Assembly (NCBI GenBank): GCA_004213835.1
Contig: SHAE01000001.1
Span: 1-64,000 of the forward strand
Direction: 5' to 3'
Source of the DNA: OM182 bacterium
Lineage (GTDB): Bacteria > Pseudomonadota > Gammaproteobacteria > Pseudomonadales > Azotimanducaceae
DNA length: 64,000 nucleotides
The position numbers and the translations under genes are program-made. Below, piece by piece: positions 4,622 to 36,483 of this stretch. The notes beneath the pieces were generated by a model that saw nothing but the letters and a program-made list of their open reading frames with translations, was not told the origin of the DNA and did no database searches. Every line of letters begins with the position of its first letter. Position 1 is the stretch's first letter.

Positions 4622-6154
4622 ATGACTACTAACACTCTGATCGACCTACCCACCGCCGACCTTGCTGAGCAAGCTGTGACGCGGGGCGAAGGCAAATTTG
4701 CCAGCAACGGCGCGATTGTCGTCGAAACTGGCGCTCGAACCGGTCGCTCTCCCAAAGACCGCTTTATTGTCGACGAACCTTCCACATCAGAGTCCATCGA
4801 CTGGGGCGATATCAACCAGCCCATCGCAGCAGATGTCTTCGATCAACTGTGGGATCGAGTGCAGGTTCACGTCACCGAGCGCGAAACCTTTTTGTCCCAT
4901 CTGCATGTGGGCGCGGACCCCGAGCATTATCTGCCGATCGAGGTCACGACCGAATACGCGTGGCACGGGCTCTTTGGCCGATCACTCTTTATTACCCCAG
5001 ATCACTACAACCCCCACAACAAAGAAGTGTGGCGGGTGGTCAATGCACCAACATTCCAGTGCGACCCCGAGCGCGATGGCACCAACAGTGACGGCACGGT
5101 GATGATCAACTTTGCCCAGCGCAAAGTACTGATTGCCGGTATGCGCTATGCAGGGGAAATGAAAAAGTCGATGTTCTCCGTGCTGAACTTTCTGCTGCCG
5201 GAGAAAGATGTCTTACCCATGCACTGTTCTGCCAATGCCGGGCCAAACGAGGATGTGACGCTATTCTTCGGGCTGTCCGGTACCGGCAAGACAACGTTGT
5301 CGGCTGATCCTGATCGTTTGCTGATTGGCGACGACGAACATGGTTGGGGCAAGGGCACGGTCTTCAACTTCGAAGGCGGCTGCTATGCCAAGTGCATTGA
5401 TCTAACGCGCAAGAACGAACCGGTGATTTATGACGCCATTCGCTTTGGCGCCATCGTTGAGAATGTGGTCATCGACGAGGGGCGCAATCCGGACTATGCA
5501 GACAGCTCACTGACGGAAAATACACGAGCCTGTTACCCGCGCAGCAACATCGACGCCAAGGTGCCAGAAAACCGCGGCGGTGAACCCAACAACATTATCT
5601 TTCTCACCTGCGATGTCAGCGGGGTATTGCCACCGGTTTCCGTGCTATCAAAAGAAGCAGCGGCCTATCACTTTTTGTCCGGTTATACCGCGGCGGTAGG
5701 CTCCACCGAAATCGGTTCGACCGAAGCTTACAAAGCAACCTTCTCAACCTGCTTTGGCGCACCATTCTTTCCGCGCCCTGCAGGCGTCTACGCCGATCTA
5801 CTCATCAAGCGAATAGAAGAGTTCGGTTCTCGGGTCTACTTGGTCAACACCGGCTGGACCGGCGGCGGCTACGGTGTTGGTGAACGTTTCAACATTCCAA
5901 CCACCCGAGCAATCATCGCCGCCGTACAAAGCGGTGCTCTAGCCGACGCGGCGACGACTCGTATTGCTGGCTTGAATCTGGATATCCCGGTTGCGGTGCC
6001 GGGTGTTGATGCAAATTTGTTAAACCCTCGAGATACATGGTCGGACAAAGAAGCGTACGATACGGCTGCGGCGAGCTTGATAAGCAAGTTCCAAGAGAAC
6101 TTCCAGCGTTTTGATGTCGAGCCAAGCATTGTTGCCGCTGGGCCAGCCGCCTAG
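4622..6154 (+). CDS. pckA: Phosphoenolpyruvate carboxykinase (ATP)
   Basis: This 510-residue enzyme converts oxaloacetate and ATP to phosphoenolpyruvate, ADP and CO2, the entry to gluconeogenesis. The kinase-1a P-loop GLSGTGKTT lies at 217-225, followed by GDDEHGWG (236-243) and the FEGGCYAK block (250-257) of the active site. I chose the ATG at 4622, where family homology begins ([10 protein letters not shown]); the open frame extends 24 codons further upstream, through the promoter region. No strong Shine-Dalgarno is visible. It stands alone after hslO, with its own promoter, as in pseudomonads. Expected use: growth on organic and amino acids. Confidence 0.96.
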
Positions 6155-6243
6155 CCTGCTTTTTTGCATCACCGCCTGACCGGGCCGCCATATTTGCTCG
6201 GTTTCGGTGGTGTTACACGCTTTGGGGGAAGCATGATCTAGCC

Positions 6244-7824
6244 ATGCAGTTGGATAACGCCACAATTCATGCGCTGGGGCAGCCCAATGTCGGACTGGAT
6301 CGCCTCATTCGAGGCATCGAGAAAGAAAGCCTGAGAGTGCATGCAGATGGCTCGCTATCCCAGTCTGCGCATCCACCAAGCTTAGGCTCTGCGCTTACCC
6401 ACCGGGCGATCACCACAGATTTCTCTGAAGCACAGCTAGAGCTCATCACCGGTACTCACCCGAGCCCTGAAGACGTGCTACAGGAGCTATCGGATATTCA
6501 CGTCTTCGTGCAACAAAACATCGGCCAAGAATTGCTTTGGCCCAGCAGCATGCCCTGCATCTTGGCCGCCGATCAGGACAAGATTCCCCTAGGACAGTAT
6601 GGCTCCTCAAACATTGCCCAAGCGAAAACCGTCTACCGACGCGGTCTCGGCAACCGCTATGGGCGTTTGATGCAGACCATCTCAGGCATTCACTACAATT
6701 TTTCTGTGCCCGAGGAACTGTGGAGCGCGCTGGGGAAATCGGATCAGCAAAGCCAAACCGACGCCTACTTTGGCATGATCCGTAATTTTCGTCGGTGGTC
6801 TTGGTTGCTACTGTACTTATTTGGCGCAGCGCCCGCGGTCTGCCGATCCTTCGTACAAAACATGGATCACGGCCTAGAGCAATTTAACGAGGGAACTTAT
6901 TACCTGCCCCACGCCACCAGCCTGCGCATGGGACGTTTGGGCTACCAAAGCGAGGCGCAAAGTGCGCTGGATGTGTCCTACAACTCGGTAGCAGATTACT
7001 CACGCTCGATGCGCATCGGTCTGACGGAGAGCTTTCCCGATTACGCGGCCATTCGCCCGGCCAAGGACCAAAAGCACCCCCAGCTCAACGACGCCGTCCT
7101 GCAAATTGAAAACGAGTTCTACGGCACCATTCGCCCCAAGCGCACCACCCGCAGCGGCGAACGGCCCTTGGCCGCGCTGAATGAGCGGGGTGTTGAATAT
7201 GTAGAGGTGCGATGCGTCGACTTAAATCCATTCGAACCCTTGGGCATCAATGCCGAGCAGATTCGATTTCTGGACACCTTTTTGCTGCTCTGCATGCTGG
7301 CGCCTTCGCCTCCAGATTCCGCCGAGTCGAGAGCCAGTTTAGGTCGAAATCAAACCCGTGTGGTCGAACGCGGCCGAGAACCTGGGCTGCAACTTGAAAC
7401 CGAAAATGGCCTCGTCGCCCTGTCTGCTTGGGCGACGCAATTGTTGGCGGCGTGCGAACCCATCGCTCATGCCCTCGATCAAGCCCGCGATAGCAACGCC
7501 AGCAACCACAACGATACGCTAGCTGATTCAGCAACAGCGTATGAGGCCAGTTTGCAGGCGCAAAAAGACAAAGTCGCTCGCCCGTCTCTCACGCCATCGG
7601 CCCAAGTGATTGCCGCCATGGCGACCCACGGCTCTTTCTACAAGTTCACCATGCATCAAGCGCAGAAGATTCAGCAACATTTGCAGGCTGCACCCATCGC
7701 GCCTGCAACCCTCACCGCATTGCAGGAGGAGTCCGCAGACTCGTTGTGGCGCCAAGCAGAGGTCGAGGCGGCGGATACCCAGACATTTGAGGAATTTCTG
7801 GAAGACTATCTTGCGCTGCCATAG
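6244..7824 (+). CDS. gshA: Glutamate-cysteine ligase (proteobacterial GshA)
   Basis: This 526-residue enzyme makes gamma-glutamylcysteine from glutamate, cysteine and ATP, the first and rate-limiting step of glutathione synthesis. The N-terminal active-site blocks are clear: GIEKESLRV at 24-32 and the ITTDFSEAQLELIT segment at 56-69, both typical of the E. coli-type family; the usual length is about 520 residues. The ATG at 6244 lies 89 bases after pckA. Its product helps set the thiol pool on which Hsp33, DsbB and thioredoxin, encoded nearby, depend, but there is no sign of a shared operon. Confidence 0.95.
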   Translation: MQLDNATIHALGQPNVGLDRLIRGIEKESLRVHADGSLSQSAHPPSLGSALTHRAITTDFSEAQLELITGTHPSPEDVLQELSDIHVFVQQNIGQELLWPSSMPCILAADQDKIPLGQYGSSNIAQAKTVYRRGLGNRYGRLMQTISGIHYNFSVPEELWSALGKSDQQSQTDAYFGMIRNFRRWSWLLLYLFGAAPAVCRSFVQNMDHGLEQFNEGTYYLPHATSLRMGRLGYQSEAQSALDVSYNSVADYSRSMRIGLTESFPDYAAIRPAKDQKHPQLNDAVLQIENEFYGTIRPKRTTRSGERPLAALNERGVEYVEVRCVDLNPFEPLGINAEQIRFLDTFLLLCMLAPSPPDSAESRASLGRNQTRVVERGREPGLQLETENGLVALSAWATQLLAACEPIAHALDQARDSNASNHNDTLADSATAYEASLQAQKDKVARPSLTPSAQVIAAMATHGSFYKFTMHQAQKIQQHLQAAPIAPATLTALQEESADSLWRQAEVEAADTQTFEEFLEDYLALP

Positions 7825-29448: not shown

Positions 29449-30663
29449 CTACTTTGAGAACTCAGGGTAGGCAGCGATGCCAATCTCAGCGCTGTCTGCA
29501 CCGACCATTTGGTCCTCGTCGGACAGGCGGATACCGAACAGCATCTTGATGATGAACCAGACAACCAAGGCCGCAGCAAAGGTGAAGCCCAAGATCGCGC
29601 CCAGTCCAGTGAGCTGACCCGCCAACGTTGCATCATCGTTGGTGATGAGCACCGCCAGCAGACCCCAGATGCCACAGGTACCGTGAACCGAGATCGCACC
29701 AACGGGATCGTCAATGCGCATTTTGTCTAGGCCGACAATGGACAGCACGACAATTAGACCACCAACCGCGCCGATCAGCATGGATTCGACGTTGGTACCA
29801 GACAGCGGTTCTGCGGTAATGGATACCAATCCCGCCAACGCGCCATTCAGCGCCATGGTGAGGTCGGCCTTGCCAAACATGGCTCGGGCCAGAACCAAGG
29901 CGGCGATCAAGCCACCTGCCGCAGCCATATTCGTGTTGACGAATACCTGTGCAACTGCATTAGCTTCATCGATGTTGCTGAGCATTAACTCAGAGCCACC
30001 GTTAAATCCGAACCAGCCAAACCAGAGAATGAACATGCCCAGTGTCGCCAAGGGCATATTCGACCCTGGAATTGGGTTGATCTCGCCATTGGGGCCATAC
30101 TTGCCATTGCGAGGTCCGAGTAAGAGCACGCCGGCGAGCGCTGCGGCAGCACCACACATATGTACGATACCGGAGCCGGCAAAATCGATGAATCCGGCGT
30201 CTGACAAGAATCCACCGCCCCAGCTCCAACTTCCTTGGAATGGATAGATAAAGCCCGTCATAACGACGGCGAATAACAGAAATGACCAGAGCTTCATGCG
30301 CTCGGCAACCGCACCGGAAATAATTGACATGGCTGTCGCTACGAAGACCACTTGGAAAAAGAAGTCAGAGCGGGCTGAGTAGTAGACGTCACCACCGGAG
30401 GCCAGTACATCGTCAACGGTATTTTCAGAACCGATGAGCATGCCGCCGCCACCGTACATAATCGCGTAACCAATCAGCAGATACATGACGCTAGCGATGG
30501 CAAAAAGCGCCACGTTCTTCGTCAAAATCTCCGAGGTATTTTTGCTTTGCACCATGCCCGCCTCGAGCATTGCAAAACCTGGCGCCATGAACATCACGAG
30601 GACCCCCATGACCAGAAAGTAGAATGTATCTACCGCGTAACTTAATTGAACAAGATCTTCCAC
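29449..30663 (-). CDS. amtB: Ammonium transporter AmtB, second tandem copy
   Basis: This 404-residue trimeric channel protein with eleven predicted membrane helices conducts ammonia/ammonium into the cell. The pore twin histidines are His168 (GIVHMCGAA) and His327 (SVHGTCGIWG). It lacks the extra N-terminal signal segment of E. coli AmtB. It is a close paralogue of the gene at 30826-32037: most membrane segments are identical in sequence, with differences clustered near residues 45-85 and at the C-terminus. It lies 162 bases behind that copy, with a hairpin between, and ends at an intrinsic terminator. The C-terminal tail, where PII proteins bind, differs between copies. Confidence 0.93.
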   Translation of the reverse strand: MEDLVQLSYAVDTFYFLVMGVLVMFMAPGFAMLEAGMVQSKNTSEILTKNVALFAIASVMYLLIGYAIMYGGGGMLIGSENTVDDVLASGGDVYYSARSDFFFQVVFVATAMSIISGAVAERMKLWSFLLFAVVMTGFIYPFQGSWSWGGGFLSDAGFIDFAGSGIVHMCGAAAALAGVLLLGPRNGKYGPNGEINPIPGSNMPLATLGMFILWFGWFGFNGGSELMLSNIDEANAVAQVFVNTNMAAAGGLIAALVLARAMFGKADLTMALNGALAGLVSITAEPLSGTNVESMLIGAVGGLIVVLSIVGLDKMRIDDPVGAISVHGTCGIWGLLAVLITNDDATLAGQLTGLGAILGFTFAAALVVWFIIKMLFGIRLSDEDQMVGADSAEIGIAAYPEFSK

Positions 30664-30778
30664 CGAATCTCTCCATTTGTTTTGTTGGCTTCAACCCGCC
30701 CCGCAGGCTCGCTGCTAAGGGCTGCTTCACTCAATGACTGATCGCATTGCAAGGGTTGAAGGGTTTGGCCTGTGAACA

Positions 30779-30807
30779 GAGGATGGCGGTCCGACACCGC
30801 CACCCTC
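30779..30807 (-). other. Stable hairpin between the two amtB genes, no T tract
   Basis: On the minus strand GAGGGTGGCGGT pairs with ACCGCCATCCTC across the loop GTCGG: a 12-bp stem with one G-U pair. No T run follows, so it is not a classical terminator. It may protect or process the mRNA between the two copies (inference). Confidence 0.5.
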
Positions 30808-30825
30808 GTGTTCGAAACGAATCGA

Positions 30826-32037
30826 CTAGTTGTCGAATTCTGGGTAAGCGCTGATACCCACTTCGGAAGAGTCCAAACCAGCAAGCTCTTCTTCTTCTGA
30901 GACTCGGATACCCATGATCATCTTGATGATGAACCAGACGATCAGAGAAGCGACGAAGGTGAAGCCGAAGATCGCACCTAGGCCTGTGAGCTGACCGGTT
31001 AGGGTTGCGTCATCACTGGTGATGAGTACTGCCAACAGACCCCAGATACCGCAAGTACCGTGTACGGAGATTGCACCGACTGGATCGTCGATCTTGACCT
31101 TGTCCAGAGCGACGAGGGAGAGCACGACGATGATGCCGCCGATGGCGCCGATCAGCATGGATTCAGCGTGCGTGCCCGACAGCGGCTCAGCGGTAATGGA
31201 TACCAATCCAGCAAGTGCACCGTTGAGTGCCATGGTGATATCTGCCTTACCAAACATGATTTGCGACATGATCAGGGCAGCGACAGCGCCGCAGGCTGCT
31301 GCCATGTTGGTGTTAACGAACACCTGAGCGACGGCGTTGGCTTCGTCTACATTACTGAGCTTAAGCTCTGATCCGCCGTTAAATCCGAACCAGCCGAACC
31401 AAAGGATGAACATGCCTAGCGTTGCCAGCGGCATGTTACAGCCAGGAATCGGCGTGATTGTACCGTCATCGTTGTACTTACCCGATCGTGGTCCGAGTAA
31501 CAAAACCCCCGCTAGCGCTGCAGCAGCACCGCACATGTGAACGATGCCTGATCCCGCAAAGTCGACAAAGCCTGCGTCGGAAAGGAAACCGCCACCCCAG
31601 CTCCAGCTGCCTTGAATCGGGTAGATAACACCAGTCATGACGACGGCGAACAAAAGGAATGCCCAGACCTTCATGCGCTCAGCAACAGCGCCGGAGATGA
31701 TCGACATCGCTGTGGCGACGAAAACCACTTGGAAGAAGAAGTCCGACTTACCGGAGTAGTAGACATCGCCTCCGGAGGCCAACACATCTTCGACGGTGTT
31801 GTCAGGGGTGAGCAGCATACCGCCCGCGTACATCAAATCGTAACCAATCACGATGTACATAATGCAGGCGATCGAAAACAAACCGATATTCTTCACCAGA
31901 ATGCCTGAGGTGTTTTTCGACCGCACCATGCCTGCTTCGAGCATTGCAAAGCCAGGCGCCATGAACATGACCATGGCCCCCATGACGAGGAAGTAGAACG
32001 TGTCTACTGCGTACGCTAGTTGAATTAGATCTTCCAC
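30826..32037 (-). CDS. amtB: Ammonium transporter AmtB, copy next to glnK
   Basis: This 403-residue ammonium channel has eleven predicted helices, twin pore histidines His167 and His326, and the gating-region aromatic residues (for example WFGWFGFNGGSEL). It starts 24 bases after glnK on the same strand, the classical glnK-amtB pair in which GlnK plugs the channel when nitrogen is sufficient. A near-identical copy follows. The C-terminal tail ends EVGISAYPEFDN. Expression is probably driven by the sigma-54-type promoter upstream of glnK. Confidence 0.95.
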   Translation of the reverse strand: MEDLIQLAYAVDTFYFLVMGAMVMFMAPGFAMLEAGMVRSKNTSGILVKNIGLFSIACIMYIVIGYDLMYAGGMLLTPDNTVEDVLASGGDVYYSGKSDFFFQVVFVATAMSIISGAVAERMKVWAFLLFAVVMTGVIYPIQGSWSWGGGFLSDAGFVDFAGSGIVHMCGAAAALAGVLLLGPRSGKYNDDGTITPIPGCNMPLATLGMFILWFGWFGFNGGSELKLSNVDEANAVAQVFVNTNMAAACGAVAALIMSQIMFGKADITMALNGALAGLVSITAEPLSGTHAESMLIGAIGGIIVVLSLVALDKVKIDDPVGAISVHGTCGIWGLLAVLITSDDATLTGQLTGLGAIFGFTFVASLIVWFIIKMIMGIRVSEEEELAGLDSSEVGISAYPEFDN

Positions 32038-32061: not shown

Positions 32062-32409
<348 letters not shown>

Positions 32410-32584: not shown

Positions 32585-32600
32585 AGCAATATGTGTGCCT
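32585..32600 (-). promoter_or_regulatory. Sigma-54 (RpoN) promoter of glnK-amtB
   Basis: On the minus strand the sequence AGGCACACATATTGCT matches the -24/-12 consensus TGGCACG-N4-TTGCW, with GG and GC exactly 12 bases apart. The predicted start near 32574 gives a leader of about 174 bases. RpoN control of glnK-amtB is established in enteric bacteria and pseudomonads. Confidence 0.65.
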
Positions 32601-33028: not shown

Positions 33029-33058
33029 TTACAAGGATTTAAGCACGCGCTGTAGAAT
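33029..33058 (+). promoter_or_regulatory. Possible ubiK promoter
   Basis: TTACAA (33029-33034) and TAGAAT (33053-33058), with an 18-base spacer, lie 35 bases before the ubiK ATG. Confidence 0.4.
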
Positions 33059-33092
33059 GACTTTCACCTTTAACTTGTTGCCAAGGAAGAAC

Positions 33093-33347
33093 ATGCAGAT
33101 AGATCCGCTTACCGCACTGCTTCAGTCAATAAAATCAGTGCTTGATCAGGCGTTGCCAACAGACCTCGCACACTCCGTGGGTAAGGATATCGAATCACGG
33201 TTACAGAACGCGCTAAAGAGCCTGTCCTTGGTGCCAAAACATGAGTTCGAAGCTCAGCAGACGCTCTTGGTGACCCTTGAAGCACAAATTGAGACTCTGG
33301 AACAACGTCTGGCGAAATTGGAGGACACAGGTGCCGCTGATCGCTAA
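33093..33347 (+). CDS. ubiK: Ubiquinone biosynthesis accessory factor UbiK
   Basis: This 84-residue protein of the BMFP/YqiC family has an amphipathic N-terminal helix (DPLTALLQSIKSVLDQALP) and a C-terminal trimeric coiled coil (EAQIETLEQRLAKLE). UbiK binds UbiJ and lipid and assists aerobic ubiquinone synthesis in the Ubi complex. I chose the ATG at 33093, preceded by AAGGA; an ATG 36 bases upstream adds unsupported residues. It is followed after 15 bases by comM, an arrangement also found in Pseudomonas. Confidence 0.85.
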   Translation: MQIDPLTALLQSIKSVLDQALPTDLAHSVGKDIESRLQNALKSLSLVPKHEFEAQQTLLVTLEAQIETLEQRLAKLEDTGAADR

Positions 33348-33362: not shown

Positions 33363-34922
33363 GTGAAGCGCAGAGCTTCTGTACTTACCCGGGCCGCCTT
33401 TGGCTTGGACGCGCACCCGGTACACGTGGAGTGCCATCTGGCCGGCGGGTTGCCCGGTACGACGGTTGTTGGCCTTGCTGAAGGCGCCGTGAAAGAGGCC
33501 AGAGATCGTGTAAAAAGTGCCATTCGCAACAGCGGTTTTCATTATCCAACCAGTCATATCACACTCAATTTGGCACCCAGCCACCTCACCAAATCTGGCA
33601 CCGCATTCGATTTACCGATTGCCATTGCCATTCTCGCGGCCAGCGAACAAATCCCCACTGACGCATTAGTGGATACAGAATTCGTCGGTGAGCTAAGCCT
33701 TTTTGGCGATCTGCGCGAAACCTCGAATCTATTAGCAAGCGCCATTGCCTGCGACAGCGCAAACCACCGTTTGTTTCTGCCACTGGCCAATGACACGGAA
33801 ATCGCACTTGTCGGTAGCGACAAATCTTGGCCCGCCACGAGCCTGTATGGGGTTGCACAAATGCTCTGTGGACGCCGCGAGCAGCCGCCCATGGTCAAAG
33901 CAATAGCACCCGATGCAGCAACCACCACCGGTCGCTTCAACGAAATCATTGGGCAATACCAAGCGAAACGTGCCCTCACAATAGCCGCAGCTGGCGGTCA
34001 TCACATGCTCATAGTCGGCCCGCCGGGAACCGGCAAAACCATGCTCGCGGAGTGTTTAATTGACTTGCTCCCCGATCTGGACAAACCCGACGCACTCTCA
34101 GTGGCCAGTATTTATTCGGCGTTTGGGGTGCGCCGATCCAACGTGATGCGGCCTCCTTTACGGCGCCCCCACCACTCAGCCAGCAACGCCTCAATCAGTG
34201 GTGGCGGGCATACGCCAACACCCGGTGAGGTTAGCCTTGCCCACCGAGGCGTGTTGTTTCTTGATGAGCTACCGCACTTCAAGCCATCAACTTTGGATCT
34301 TTTACGAGAGCCCATAGAAACCGGCGAAATTGCCATCGTGCGCGCACGCTATCGCACCGTGCTACCCAGCCGTTTCCAACTGATCGCCGCCATGAACCCC
34401 TGCCCTGCGGGGCGGTCTTGCAAAGAACAAACATGTCGCTGCACGTCGAGCCAAGTACAGCGTTATCAAAGCAGAGTCTCGGGGCCTTTGTTAGATCGGA
34501 TCGATTTACATGTGCCGGTACCCGAGCTCGATGAGGCACTGATGCAACGTCACCAAAACAAGGTTGAGTCTGATCAAGGTGAGCTGCAGCGCACGCGTAC
34601 CAACGTACGCCTCGCCCAACGCCGTCAGCGCCAGCAGCAAGGCTGCTTGAACGCAAATCTCTCCAGCGAAGCGCTCGCGCGCAGAATTAACGAAGCGGAC
34701 TTCGCACCCACCTTCTTGGCCGATGTATGCAAAAAATTGGAGTTGTCTATGCGCAGCTACCACAAGGTATGGCGCGTGGCGCTAACGATTGCCGACCTTG
34801 AGCAAGCGGCTTCGCCGCCAGCGCCGGGCTCACAACCTGAAGGCGTATCCCCAGCTGTGACCGAGCAACACTTTATGGAGGCGCTAAGCTACCGAACCAT
34901 GACTTGGGGCGGCGATGGTTAA
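33363..34922 (+). CDS. comM: YifB/ComM-type AAA+ helicase (Mg-chelatase-like)
   Basis: This 519-residue protein has an N-terminal Lon-protease-like domain (about 1-170: GLPGTTVVGLAEGAVKEAR, LAPSHLTKSGTAFDLP), an AAA+ module with Walker A GPPGTGKTM and Walker B VLFLDELPHF, a zinc-like cluster of cysteines (CPAGRSCKEQTCRC) and a C-terminal Mg_chelatase domain (SMRSYHKVWRVALTIADLE). ComM is a hexameric helicase that promotes branch migration during natural transformation. It starts with GTG shortly after ubiK. No other competence gene is in the window, so a role in DNA uptake here is inference. Confidence 0.9.
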   Translation: MKRRASVLTRAAFGLDAHPVHVECHLAGGLPGTTVVGLAEGAVKEARDRVKSAIRNSGFHYPTSHITLNLAPSHLTKSGTAFDLPIAIAILAASEQIPTDALVDTEFVGELSLFGDLRETSNLLASAIACDSANHRLFLPLANDTEIALVGSDKSWPATSLYGVAQMLCGRREQPPMVKAIAPDAATTTGRFNEIIGQYQAKRALTIAAAGGHHMLIVGPPGTGKTMLAECLIDLLPDLDKPDALSVASIYSAFGVRRSNVMRPPLRRPHHSASNASISGGGHTPTPGEVSLAHRGVLFLDELPHFKPSTLDLLREPIETGEIAIVRARYRTVLPSRFQLIAAMNPCPAGRSCKEQTCRCTSSQVQRYQSRVSGPLLDRIDLHVPVPELDEALMQRHQNKVESDQGELQRTRTNVRLAQRRQRQQQGCLNANLSSEALARRINEADFAPTFLADVCKKLELSMRSYHKVWRVALTIADLEQAASPPAPGSQPEGVSPAVTEQHFMEALSYRTMTWGGDG

Positions 34923-34950
34923 ACCGGCGAGAAAGCGCTCAGCCGAATAC

Positions 34951-34976
34951 AAAAAAGGGCTCCAAAAGGAGCCCTA
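34951..34976 (-). terminator. Intrinsic terminator of the TorF-type gene
   Basis: On the minus strand GGGCTCC-TTTT-GGAGCCC (34975-34958) is followed by TTTTTT. It ends the gene at 35000-35635 and also faces the 3' end of comM. Confidence 0.8.
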
Positions 34977-34999
34977 GAGGGAGGAGTCTTCGCCTCGGC

Positions 35000-35635
35000 T
35001 TAGAAAGATTTGCCGATTGATAGCACGACTGCTTCGCCTTCTGCGTCACTTGATGGATCGCCTTCAAGCTCGTCGCTTGGGAAGATGATCGCTACGCCAA
35101 GGTCGATATCAGATACGGTGGTACCGTACCCTAGTTCGAAATAGTCGCCATCGAATTCATCACCAAAGGTGCCATAGGTACCGTAGAAGCCAGCGCCCAG
35201 ATCAATAGAGATGTCGAGGAAATCATAATCTGTACCGCCATCGCCGTCCCATTCACCGACAGAGTAGCCAATAGAGACGGGACCGTAACCAACGCTTAGA
35301 TTGACTTCTTCATATGTCTCATCCCAATCATCGGTGTAGTAGTAGCCAGTGAAGCCGACGCCGACAGAGAGATCGCCGATATCCATGCCATAGCCTGCGT
35401 ACAGGTCATATTCTAGACCGTCGCCTACGTCTGCGGTCCAAGCACCAGCGTAAAAGCCGCCTTCTTCGTAGTCGATACCCGCGCTTGCGGAAGAGTTCTT
35501 TTGATAGATGCCGCGGTAGTAATACTCAGACACATAGCCGATGTTGTAGGAAACATCCGCGCTGGCGACGGATGATACGCCCAACGAGCCTGCAGCTATC
35601 GCAGCGGCGGATATAAATTTAGTGAGTGTTTTCAT
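35000..35635 (-). CDS. TorF family putative porin (Gcw_chp beta-barrel)
   Basis: This 211-residue outer-membrane protein has a clear signal peptide (about 1-26, ending VASA) and then alternating Tyr/Gly/Asp-rich strands such as YNIGYVSEYYYRGIYQ and LYAGYGMDIGDLSVGVGF, ending in a C-terminal Phe (IGKSF), the usual barrel insertion signal. It matches the Gcw_chp/TIGR02001 family. I chose the ATG at 35635, preceded by AGGAGAG. It is very acidic. The promoter upstream fits sigma-54, and the gene lies near glnK-amtB, so a role in uptake of a nitrogen compound is likely but unproven. Confidence 0.8.
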   Translation of the reverse strand: MKTLTKFISAAAIAAGSLGVSSVASADVSYNIGYVSEYYYRGIYQKNSSASAGIDYEEGGFYAGAWTADVGDGLEYDLYAGYGMDIGDLSVGVGFTGYYYTDDWDETYEEVNLSVGYGPVSIGYSVGEWDGDGGTDYDFLDISIDLGAGFYGTYGTFGDEFDGDYFELGYGTTVSDIDLGVAIIFPSDELEGDPSSDAEGEAVVLSIGKSF

Positions 35636-35736
35636 TGTCTCTCCTGACATATTGAATAAATTGCGGGAACCTTCGTTCACCTGCTTTAAGCGTCAATCGA
35701 GTTACAACAATCGGCGCTTTATCGCACTTCAGACAA

Positions 35737-35752
35737 AGCAACAAACGGGCCA
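35737..35752 (-). promoter_or_regulatory. Sigma-54 (RpoN) promoter of the TorF-type gene
   Basis: On the minus strand TGGCCCGTTTGTTGCT matches TGGCACG-N4-TTGCW with one mismatch and exact 12-base GG-GC spacing. The predicted start is near 35726, about 90 bases before the ATG. Confidence 0.6.
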
Positions 35753-36018
35753 ACTTTTGACCAAGAACGCTCGTGCGCACCAATAAAGGGCTTAGCGCCT
35801 GTTTTTATTGAGTATTTTTCCGCCAATGCGGGGCAAATGGGGTTTTTGAACGCACAAAAAAAGCACAAAACTGTCGCGTCGCGGATAAATTGGTTTAAGC
35901 AGGTGCAGCAGGGTGGCGATTTCGCACTGATATAGTGCGCAAATGCCGGACATTATGGTTTATATGTGGCAGGTGATAGGTAACAGATGGCAGGTGGCGG
36001 GGTTTTAGGATGAATCAC

Positions 36019-36043
36019 GCACCTTGGCAGGCTGCCAAGGTGC
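36019..36043. other. Perfect 11-bp hairpin downstream of cytochrome c5
   Basis: GCACCTTGGCA and TGCCAAGGTGC flank a GGC loop, 33 bases past the end of the cytochrome c5 gene. It has no T tract; it may be a factor-independent pause, an mRNA stabiliser, or a bidirectional barrier. Confidence 0.5.
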
Positions 36044-36075
36044 TCACTGCAGTCTATCAAGCGGGCCTTAATCGA

Positions 36076-36483
36076 TTACTGAGCAGCATCGACCATGTAG
36101 GTCACTGCATCAGCCAGTTCGTCGTCCGAACAAGACATGCACAAGCCCTTCGCTGGCATCGCACCAATGCCGTTCAACGTACTTACCATTAACGCATCCA
36201 TACCCTTGGCAATGCGTGGCGCCCAGGCACCTACATCGGCGAACGTTGGTGCGCCACCTACGCCCATGGCATGGCAAGTCGCGCAATAGGTGTCATACAC
36301 CTCAGCACCACCTAGCGGTGCTGCAGGCACCGCAGCAACAGCAACCTCTTCGACCACAACTCGGTTCACAGTACCGTAGGGAGCCAGGCGCGCGTCAATT
36401 TCGTCATCAGTGCCCGGCGGGAGCGCGTTGGCAGCCAATGCCAGTAACGCAGTAAAAGCAATTGCGATGAATCTCAGTCTCAA
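36076..36483 (-). CDS. Cytochrome c5 family protein
   Basis: This 135-residue secreted monohaem cytochrome has a signal peptide (about 1-20), a Val/Ala/Pro-rich linker (40-58) and the haem site CATCH at 67-71. The likely axial Met is in GAMPAKG, and the two cysteines of CMSC just after it form the disulfide typical of the c5 family. It is a periplasmic electron carrier, probably donating to a terminal oxidase. It stands alone between the TorF-type gene and ivd. Confidence 0.85.
   Translation of the reverse strand: MRLRFIAIAFTALLALAANALPPGTDDEIDARLAPYGTVNRVVVEEVAVAAVPAAPLGGAEVYDTYCATCHAMGVGGAPTFADVGAWAPRIAKGMDALMVSTLNGIGAMPAKGLCMSCSDDELADAVTYMVDAAQ

Follow-up and report, generated by a model that had tools for sequence, protein, structure and literature searches.

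A TorF-type outer-membrane barrel gene near glnK-amtB: predicted sigma-54/NtrC control and a probable role in the entry of nitrogen solutes

Introduction

Textbook accounts of ammonium and urea uptake start at AmtB or Urt, and to our knowledge the crossing of the outer membrane by these solutes at very low concentration is rarely considered. The locus studied here raises this question. The window, that is, the whole 64,000-nucleotide stretch of DNA that was analysed (OM182 bacterium, contig SHAE01000001.1), carries a TorF-type barrel gene which an original prediction, made from the DNA letters, placed under sigma-54 control beside glnK-amtB and proposed as the way by which a nitrogen source enters through the outer membrane. 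Is this gene controlled by nitrogen, and what would its product admit?

The family name presumably comes from TorF of Shewanella oneidensis (SO4694). That protein is described, in the passages concerned, as a 'TMAO reductase system outer membrane porin' (PMC5955497); it has the family name in common with the window TorF, but is tied to TMAO respiration. TCDB family 1.B.71 (PVP, Gcw-chp), for which the relevant passage gives 12 predicted strands, about 247 aa and '?' as substrate, bears the same Pfam domain name as the window TorF, and no nitrogen-control link is mentioned there (PMC4827864). A search of the open literature, with subscription papers mostly outside its scope, found no statement of a class-wide torF link or of a urea link. 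In the sections retrieved, work on nitrogen control in Burkholderia and in P. stutzeri mentions porins or outer-membrane proteins, none of which we could tie to TorF (PMC5491218, PMC2820453), the Comamonas (PMC8674442) and P. putida (PMC11014904) papers hold nothing informative on TorF, and an excerpt of PMC13303613 names a TorF porin and nothing more; the OMPdb article (PMC9581022) does not give the family names in its main text. Two further hits (PMC8264665 and PMC5382811) were discarded, 'TorF' being in both a piece of an author name and not the protein.

Results

The gene and its terminator lie as follows.

35000-35635, minus strand: torF-type gene; 211 aa, with a predicted signal peptide, a predicted 12-strand barrel and a C-terminal Phe
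34956-34975, minus strand: intrinsic terminator after torF; 8-pair stem, loop of 4, T run

The product belongs to the TorF family, scoring 63.8 bits against the TIGR02001 HMM (cut-off 47.15) and, in a Pfam scan, 40.9 bits against PF09694 (cut-off 24), the sole family matched. Immediately 5' of the ATG (35635) stands GGAGAGACA. Since torF has its own terminator and no sigma-70-like site turned up in a simple consensus scan of 34900-36100, it is probably a single-gene, monocistronic unit. A small cytochrome c gene (PF13442) stands upstream of it at 36076-36483, and a match to such a gene adjoins torF in all 12 of the loci L032-L043. No plasmid match to the window TorF protein was found by search.

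By prediction only, the window TorF is an outer-membrane barrel with a signal peptide. The AlphaFold2 model, computed from this protein and 60 relatives taken from the named set of loci (the best 80 of 577 confirmed loci), has 12 strands and an N-terminal helix at residues 5-17 (pLDDT 82.2, pTM 0.73). The model has the 12-strand fold of the KdgM porins: the nearest solved structures are KdgM (4fqe, Z 17.4, rmsd 2.3 over 159 residues), VhGalP (8xua, Z 17.0) and NanC (2wjq, Z 16.0), at identities of 7-11%, and a TorF profile run against PDB sequences, KdgM included, gave no match. We dropped the idea of reading a substrate off the KdgM-type fold, as a common fold shows no function. The KdgM family is described, in the text retrieved, as specific for acidic sugars (PMC4849052), yet the lumen of the window TorF is predicted to be acidic, with a net charge of -12 on the lumen side, the sides being assigned by strand alternation and hydrophobicity rather than by coordinates. 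Among the lumen-side acids, D55, E75, D77 and E110 are present in 61 of 61 TorF rows. Of these, E75, D77 and E110 hardly vary even in TorFs encoded away from glnK; we thus rejected an acidic lumen as exclusive to a nitrogen role, and these residues argue for a cation-friendly pore generally rather than for ammonium.

The sites upstream of torF are the following.

35737-35752, minus strand: -24/-12 (sigma-54) element of torF, TGGCCCGTTTGTTGCT; one mismatch, kept in relatives
35923-35939, minus strand: NtrC-like dyad CGCACTATATCAGTGCG; 3 mismatches, shuffle p ~0.03, 187 nt before the -24
35776-35791, minus strand: second, weaker NtrC-like site GCCCTTTATTGGTGCG (tentative); similar in L034 and L035

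The element stands where it was originally described, with the same single mismatch and the exact GG-N10-GC spacing. No other site of the window comes within one mismatch of TGGCACG-N4-TTGCW, which we took as the -24/-12 consensus for scoring. The 16-mer begins 117 nt 5' of the ATG; the transcription start predicted from it falls at about 35726, some 90 nt 5' of the ATG, in keeping with the distance of 90 bases given earlier. The match alone proves little, since 1.1 such sites are expected by chance in a shuffled 64 kb for the one found (within two mismatches there are 11 for 17.9 expected, no excess over chance). The significance of the single match was accordingly rejected as evidence by itself, and the weight rests on position and conservation.

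Two findings had been named beforehand as ones that would overturn the proposal, a sigma-70 start elsewhere and lack of conservation in orthologues; the consensus scan showed no sigma-70-like start, and the element proved to be conserved. When the window and seven close relatives are aligned, the only long conserved blocks upstream of torF are AAAGTTGGCCC-N3-TGTTGCTTT, in which one letter differs in one of the eight rows, and TCAGGAGAGAC, the ribosome-binding site; the remaining upstream DNA is mostly scrambled. The window torF carries a GG-N10-GC element in TGGC/TGC context, and this element is conserved. Among 40 genes with enough upstream DNA (the window and 39 relatives, L053 being left out), an element within two mismatches lies 5' of torF in 31, and within three in 37; in 31 of the 40 it is better than in dinucleotide shuffles at p<0.05. 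Six genes have a 3-mismatch match only, which shuffles equal in 13-22% of cases, and the torF genes of L043, L067 and L071 have no element within three mismatches. A chance match, with torF driven from a sigma-70 promoter, would account for a site of which about one of like quality is expected in the window, but we give this next to no credence: it would explain neither the near-invariant block in the relatives and the 31 genes within two mismatches, nor the failure of the simple scan to find a sigma-70-like site around torF.

The dyads point to NtrC as the probable activator. For the 37 torF genes with an element within three mismatches, the dyad consensus used in scoring, which we take to describe an NtrC-type site, is matched within four mismatches upstream of the -24 in all 37, and in 32 the shuffle p is below 0.05. 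In the torF dyad of the window the GCAC and the closing GCG are identical in 8 of 8 aligned rows; no counterpart of GCCCTTTATTGGTGCG was found in the five aligned relatives other than L034 and L035. The genome encodes RpoN and also NtrC (706.8 bits, cut-off 558.6), and activation of torF by NtrC would be consistent with all of these features.

The neighbourhood towards glnK comprises the following features.

33363-34922, plus strand: yifB/comM-type gene between torF and glnK (PF01078, PF13541, PF13335)
33057-33347, plus strand: ubiK-type gene between torF and glnK (PF04380)
32585-32600, minus strand: glnK's own -24/-12 element, AGGCACACATATTGCT; 2 mismatches, starting 200 nt before the ATG
32062-32400, minus strand: glnK (PF00543)
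30826-32037, minus strand: amtB (PF00909)
29449-30663, minus strand: second amtB (PF00909)

The description of torF as beside glnK-amtB holds in that the genes are within 2.6 kb of each other; they do not adjoin, as ubiK and yifB intervene on the other strand. With these two genes and the torF terminator between them, torF is not, in the window, a gene directly ahead of glnK and cotranscribed with it. The two amtB genes form a tandem pair after glnK (29449-32037), and in L032, L037, L039 and L040 a single amtB match was retained at the corresponding place.

Three gene orders were found among the relatives of the window. In order (a), torF lies directly before glnK (L050, L055, L056, L058, L059, L061, L062, L066, L069 and L070), and an element within two mismatches stands 5' of torF in all ten loci; L046 has this order too, with a diverged first P-II gene and a torF element at 3 mismatches. 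Order (b) is that of the window, with ubiK between torF and glnK and, in 8 of 10 loci, yifB as well. Here glnK has its own element within two mismatches in 10 of 10 loci, versus 0 of 18 other glnK genes; a dyad before glnK beats chance in 6 of the 10, those of the window, L032, L036 and L038 not doing so. In order (c), found in eight loci, torF is followed, often after yifB, by amtB and then glnK (the contig of L051 ends after amtB). As the first gene, amtB has an element within two mismatches in 6 of 8 loci (other amtB genes: 1 of 20); in 7 of 8, an NtrC-like dyad lies 77-78 nt before its -24. Together with the conservation of the torF element, the NtrC-like dyads and the presence of rpoN and ntrC, these separate elements in rearranged loci give good support to the proposed sigma-54 control. 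In our judgement the sigma-54/NtrC reading of torF, drawn from sequence comparison, is very likely correct.

A counter-case also occurs. In six loci of Cycloclasticus and Methylococcaceae (L184, L185, L186, L190, L191, L194) the element (1-3 mismatches) and the dyad (2-3 mismatches) are found in the torF-glnK gap, which would put torF outside the nitrogen-controlled unit there.

How widespread is the link to glnK? Of 204 genomes sampled from the class, counting that of the window, 107 carry PF09694. The class set comprised 84 torF genes in 80 regions (83 of the 89 best places plus one weaker). Taking 'ahead of glnK' as on the same strand and within 1.5 kb, 47 of the 84 precede glnK (45 within 330 nt), 4 have glnK or amtB nearby in some other arrangement, and the remaining 33 are unlinked. 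L126 and L175 have tandem torF pairs before glnK, whose first copies are the two counted genes beyond 330 nt. An element within two mismatches was found in 37 of 46 glnK-linked genes (1.3 expected; L112 was left out of the promoter count, its upstream DNA being short) versus 9 of 33 unlinked ones (0.63 expected), an excess with a Fisher p of 2.8e-6, uncorrected for kinship, in the class set. Because related torF genes are not independent, the association was also counted on independent tree pairs over supported branches: the 7 pairs gave on average 4.2 for, 0 against and 2.7 equal, which is the right direction, at a median p of only 0.125. In the named set, 58 of 80 loci are torF-glnK loci, Thauera, Azoarcus, Aromatoleum, Methylophaga and Gallionella among them, and 44 of the 57 tested (L224 left out) have an element within two mismatches. 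The element is missing from most unlinked torF genes, many of which have neighbours without a nitrogen connection; the plasmid-borne relatives L262, L264 and L263 (Cupriavidus, Azoarcus) show neither a GlnK/AmtB match in the stretch examined nor an element within two mismatches.

Some of the unlinked genes have another nitrogen importer as neighbour. In 6 of the 33, urt genes adjoin torF, without glnK in the stretch examined: the order is ureF-ureG-torF-urtA-urtB-urtC in L179, torF is followed by urtA-urtB-urtC in L169 and L171 and is divergent from them in L176 and L181, and in L162 urtA lies 1.8 kb downstream (the neighbours were identified with family models for L169, L171, L176 and L179, and placed by tblastn). 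An element within two mismatches precedes torF in five of the six, and L162 has one with 3 mismatches. All six fall in a single supported clade with seven members; the seventh, L156, has no urtA in the stretch examined. The linkage also occurs outside this clade: in L069 urt genes lie about 3 kb upstream of torF with glnK-amtB downstream, and in L247 torF-glnK-amtB is followed by urtA. Among 106 of the 107 torF-bearing genomes (G000 left out), 26 have an above-cut-off urtA, and in 11 of these torF is within 3 kb of it as compared by eye, where by our own estimate chance would give about 0.1. When the urt-linked genes are counted as linked, the element is found in 41 of 51 linked genes versus 4 of 26 others.

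The remaining neighbours of unlinked torF genes are mixed and for the most part unrelated to nitrogen, the few exceptions being genes for an Amt, a glutamine synthetase, an amino-acid permease and a binding protein for glycine betaine; these scans covered 23 of 33 genes downstream and 23 of 32 upstream, and eight of the rest were scanned singly. On a plasmid of Aquabacterium olei (L265, pTB101, 4905-7158) torF is followed by an ammonium transporter gene, next to which are a gene for a sigma-54-dependent regulator and aminomethyltransferase, purU and DUF3445 genes. We take the aminomethyltransferase/purU/DUF3445 cluster to be, possibly, a methylated-amine locus; this torF has no element within two mismatches.

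Quite apart from the promoter, the composition of the protein agrees with expression when nitrogen is scarce. The mature window TorF has 0.064 side-chain nitrogen atoms per residue; for the 40 TorFs compared, the window's and those of its relatives, the value spans 0.062-0.200 with a median of 0.085, versus a median of 0.252 (0.164-0.397) for 44 control barrels. The controls were PF13609 and PF13505 barrel segments from the same relatives (44 distinct, from 60 loci, after short and weak matches had been removed by hand), and the 18 from the same genus have a median of 0.269. All TorFs but one (39 of 40) fall below the lowest control. In the wider class the median is 0.168 for glnK-linked TorFs and 0.197 for unlinked ones outside the urt clade; linked and urt-clade genes taken together differ from the remaining unlinked ones at p 0.002, uncorrected for kinship.

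Such figures could also mean that TorF is a cheap general small-solute barrel, made in place of costlier porins and with no particular nitrogen substrate, all the more as a protein with few K, R, N and Q would come out acidic for that reason alone. We consider this chief rival reading unlikely. The saving is smaller in the glnK-linked genes of the wider class, the near-invariance of E75, D77 and E110 extends to unlinked members, and the switch of partner between the importers Amt and Urt suggests a link to substrate. The proposed entry route for a nitrogen source is strengthened by the urt linkage, the predicted acidic-lumen 12-strand barrel and the nitrogen-poor composition. We think it probable that TorF is an outer-membrane entry route for small nitrogen solutes, a pore function and substrate that we infer from the model and from gene context.

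Discussion

A likely precedent for torF is NlmA of Herbaspirillum seropedicae. In the sections dealing with it, the nlmA-glnK-amtB operon is NtrC-dependent, with amtB::lacZ 21 times higher in nitrogen limitation, and NlmA is membrane-associated, being found in membrane extracts, with its function given as unknown (PMC3023670). Like the torF of torF-glnK-amtB operons, nlmA lies directly before glnK-amtB; its expression is raised in nitrogen limitation. NlmA (orf1) would probably be Hsero_0083, a gene that is reported, in the portion of the study concerned, as jointly induced with glnK, amtB and urtA in rice roots, and that ends (98251-99039) 12 nt before glnK (99052-99390) (PMC6646362). Its size and place resemble those of torF in Rhodocyclales, and NlmA may accordingly belong to PF09694, an assignment made from position and size and not by comparing sequences. 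The window torF differs from nlmA in lying apart from glnK, with its own element and terminator.

The authors of the H. seropedicae study placed NlmA 'most probably in the periplasm' in the section retrieved (PMC3023670), and torF occurs in a tight operon with glnK-amtB, so that TorF might serve AmtB-GlnK as an envelope or signalling partner instead of forming a pore. This we find very improbable in view of the predicted barrel fold, which has the KdgM and NanC channels among its nearest solved folds, and of the torF genes that stand with urt and without glnK in the stretch examined.

With TorF taken as an entry route, events would run as follows. When nitrogen is short, phosphorylated NtrC and sigma-54 RNA polymerase would switch on the single-gene torF unit, and glnK-amtB would be switched on alongside through its own sigma-54 element. 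The barrel would admit small nitrogen solutes to the periplasm, ammonium or methylammonium in this organism and urea in the urt-linked relatives, where AmtB or Urt would take over. The window torF may descend from, or parallel, the widespread torF-glnK-amtB operon, ubiK (usually with yifB) having come to separate torF from glnK-amtB in its lineage.

A broader reading is quite possible, and we put it forward tentatively: TorF/NlmA barrels could be a general nitrogen-starvation outer-membrane gate through which small nitrogen solutes pass in Proteobacteria, paired with whatever inner-membrane importer has to be supplied, moving between the operons of ammonium (Amt), urea (Urt) and perhaps methylated-amine importers and, in the present lineage, made nearly without side-chain nitrogen for synthesis during starvation. 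The predicted NtrC/sigma-54 control, the linkage to both importers and the nitrogen poverty make the question of the TorF substrate directly testable, and TorF an unusually clear candidate for elemental-cost selection on a starvation-made protein.

The barrel may also come in a larger form. Open frames of about 470 aa were seen in L121, L187 and L193, and one of 480 in the genome of L134; in L121 and L134 two PF09694 matches share one frame, and double-barrel fusions may exist.
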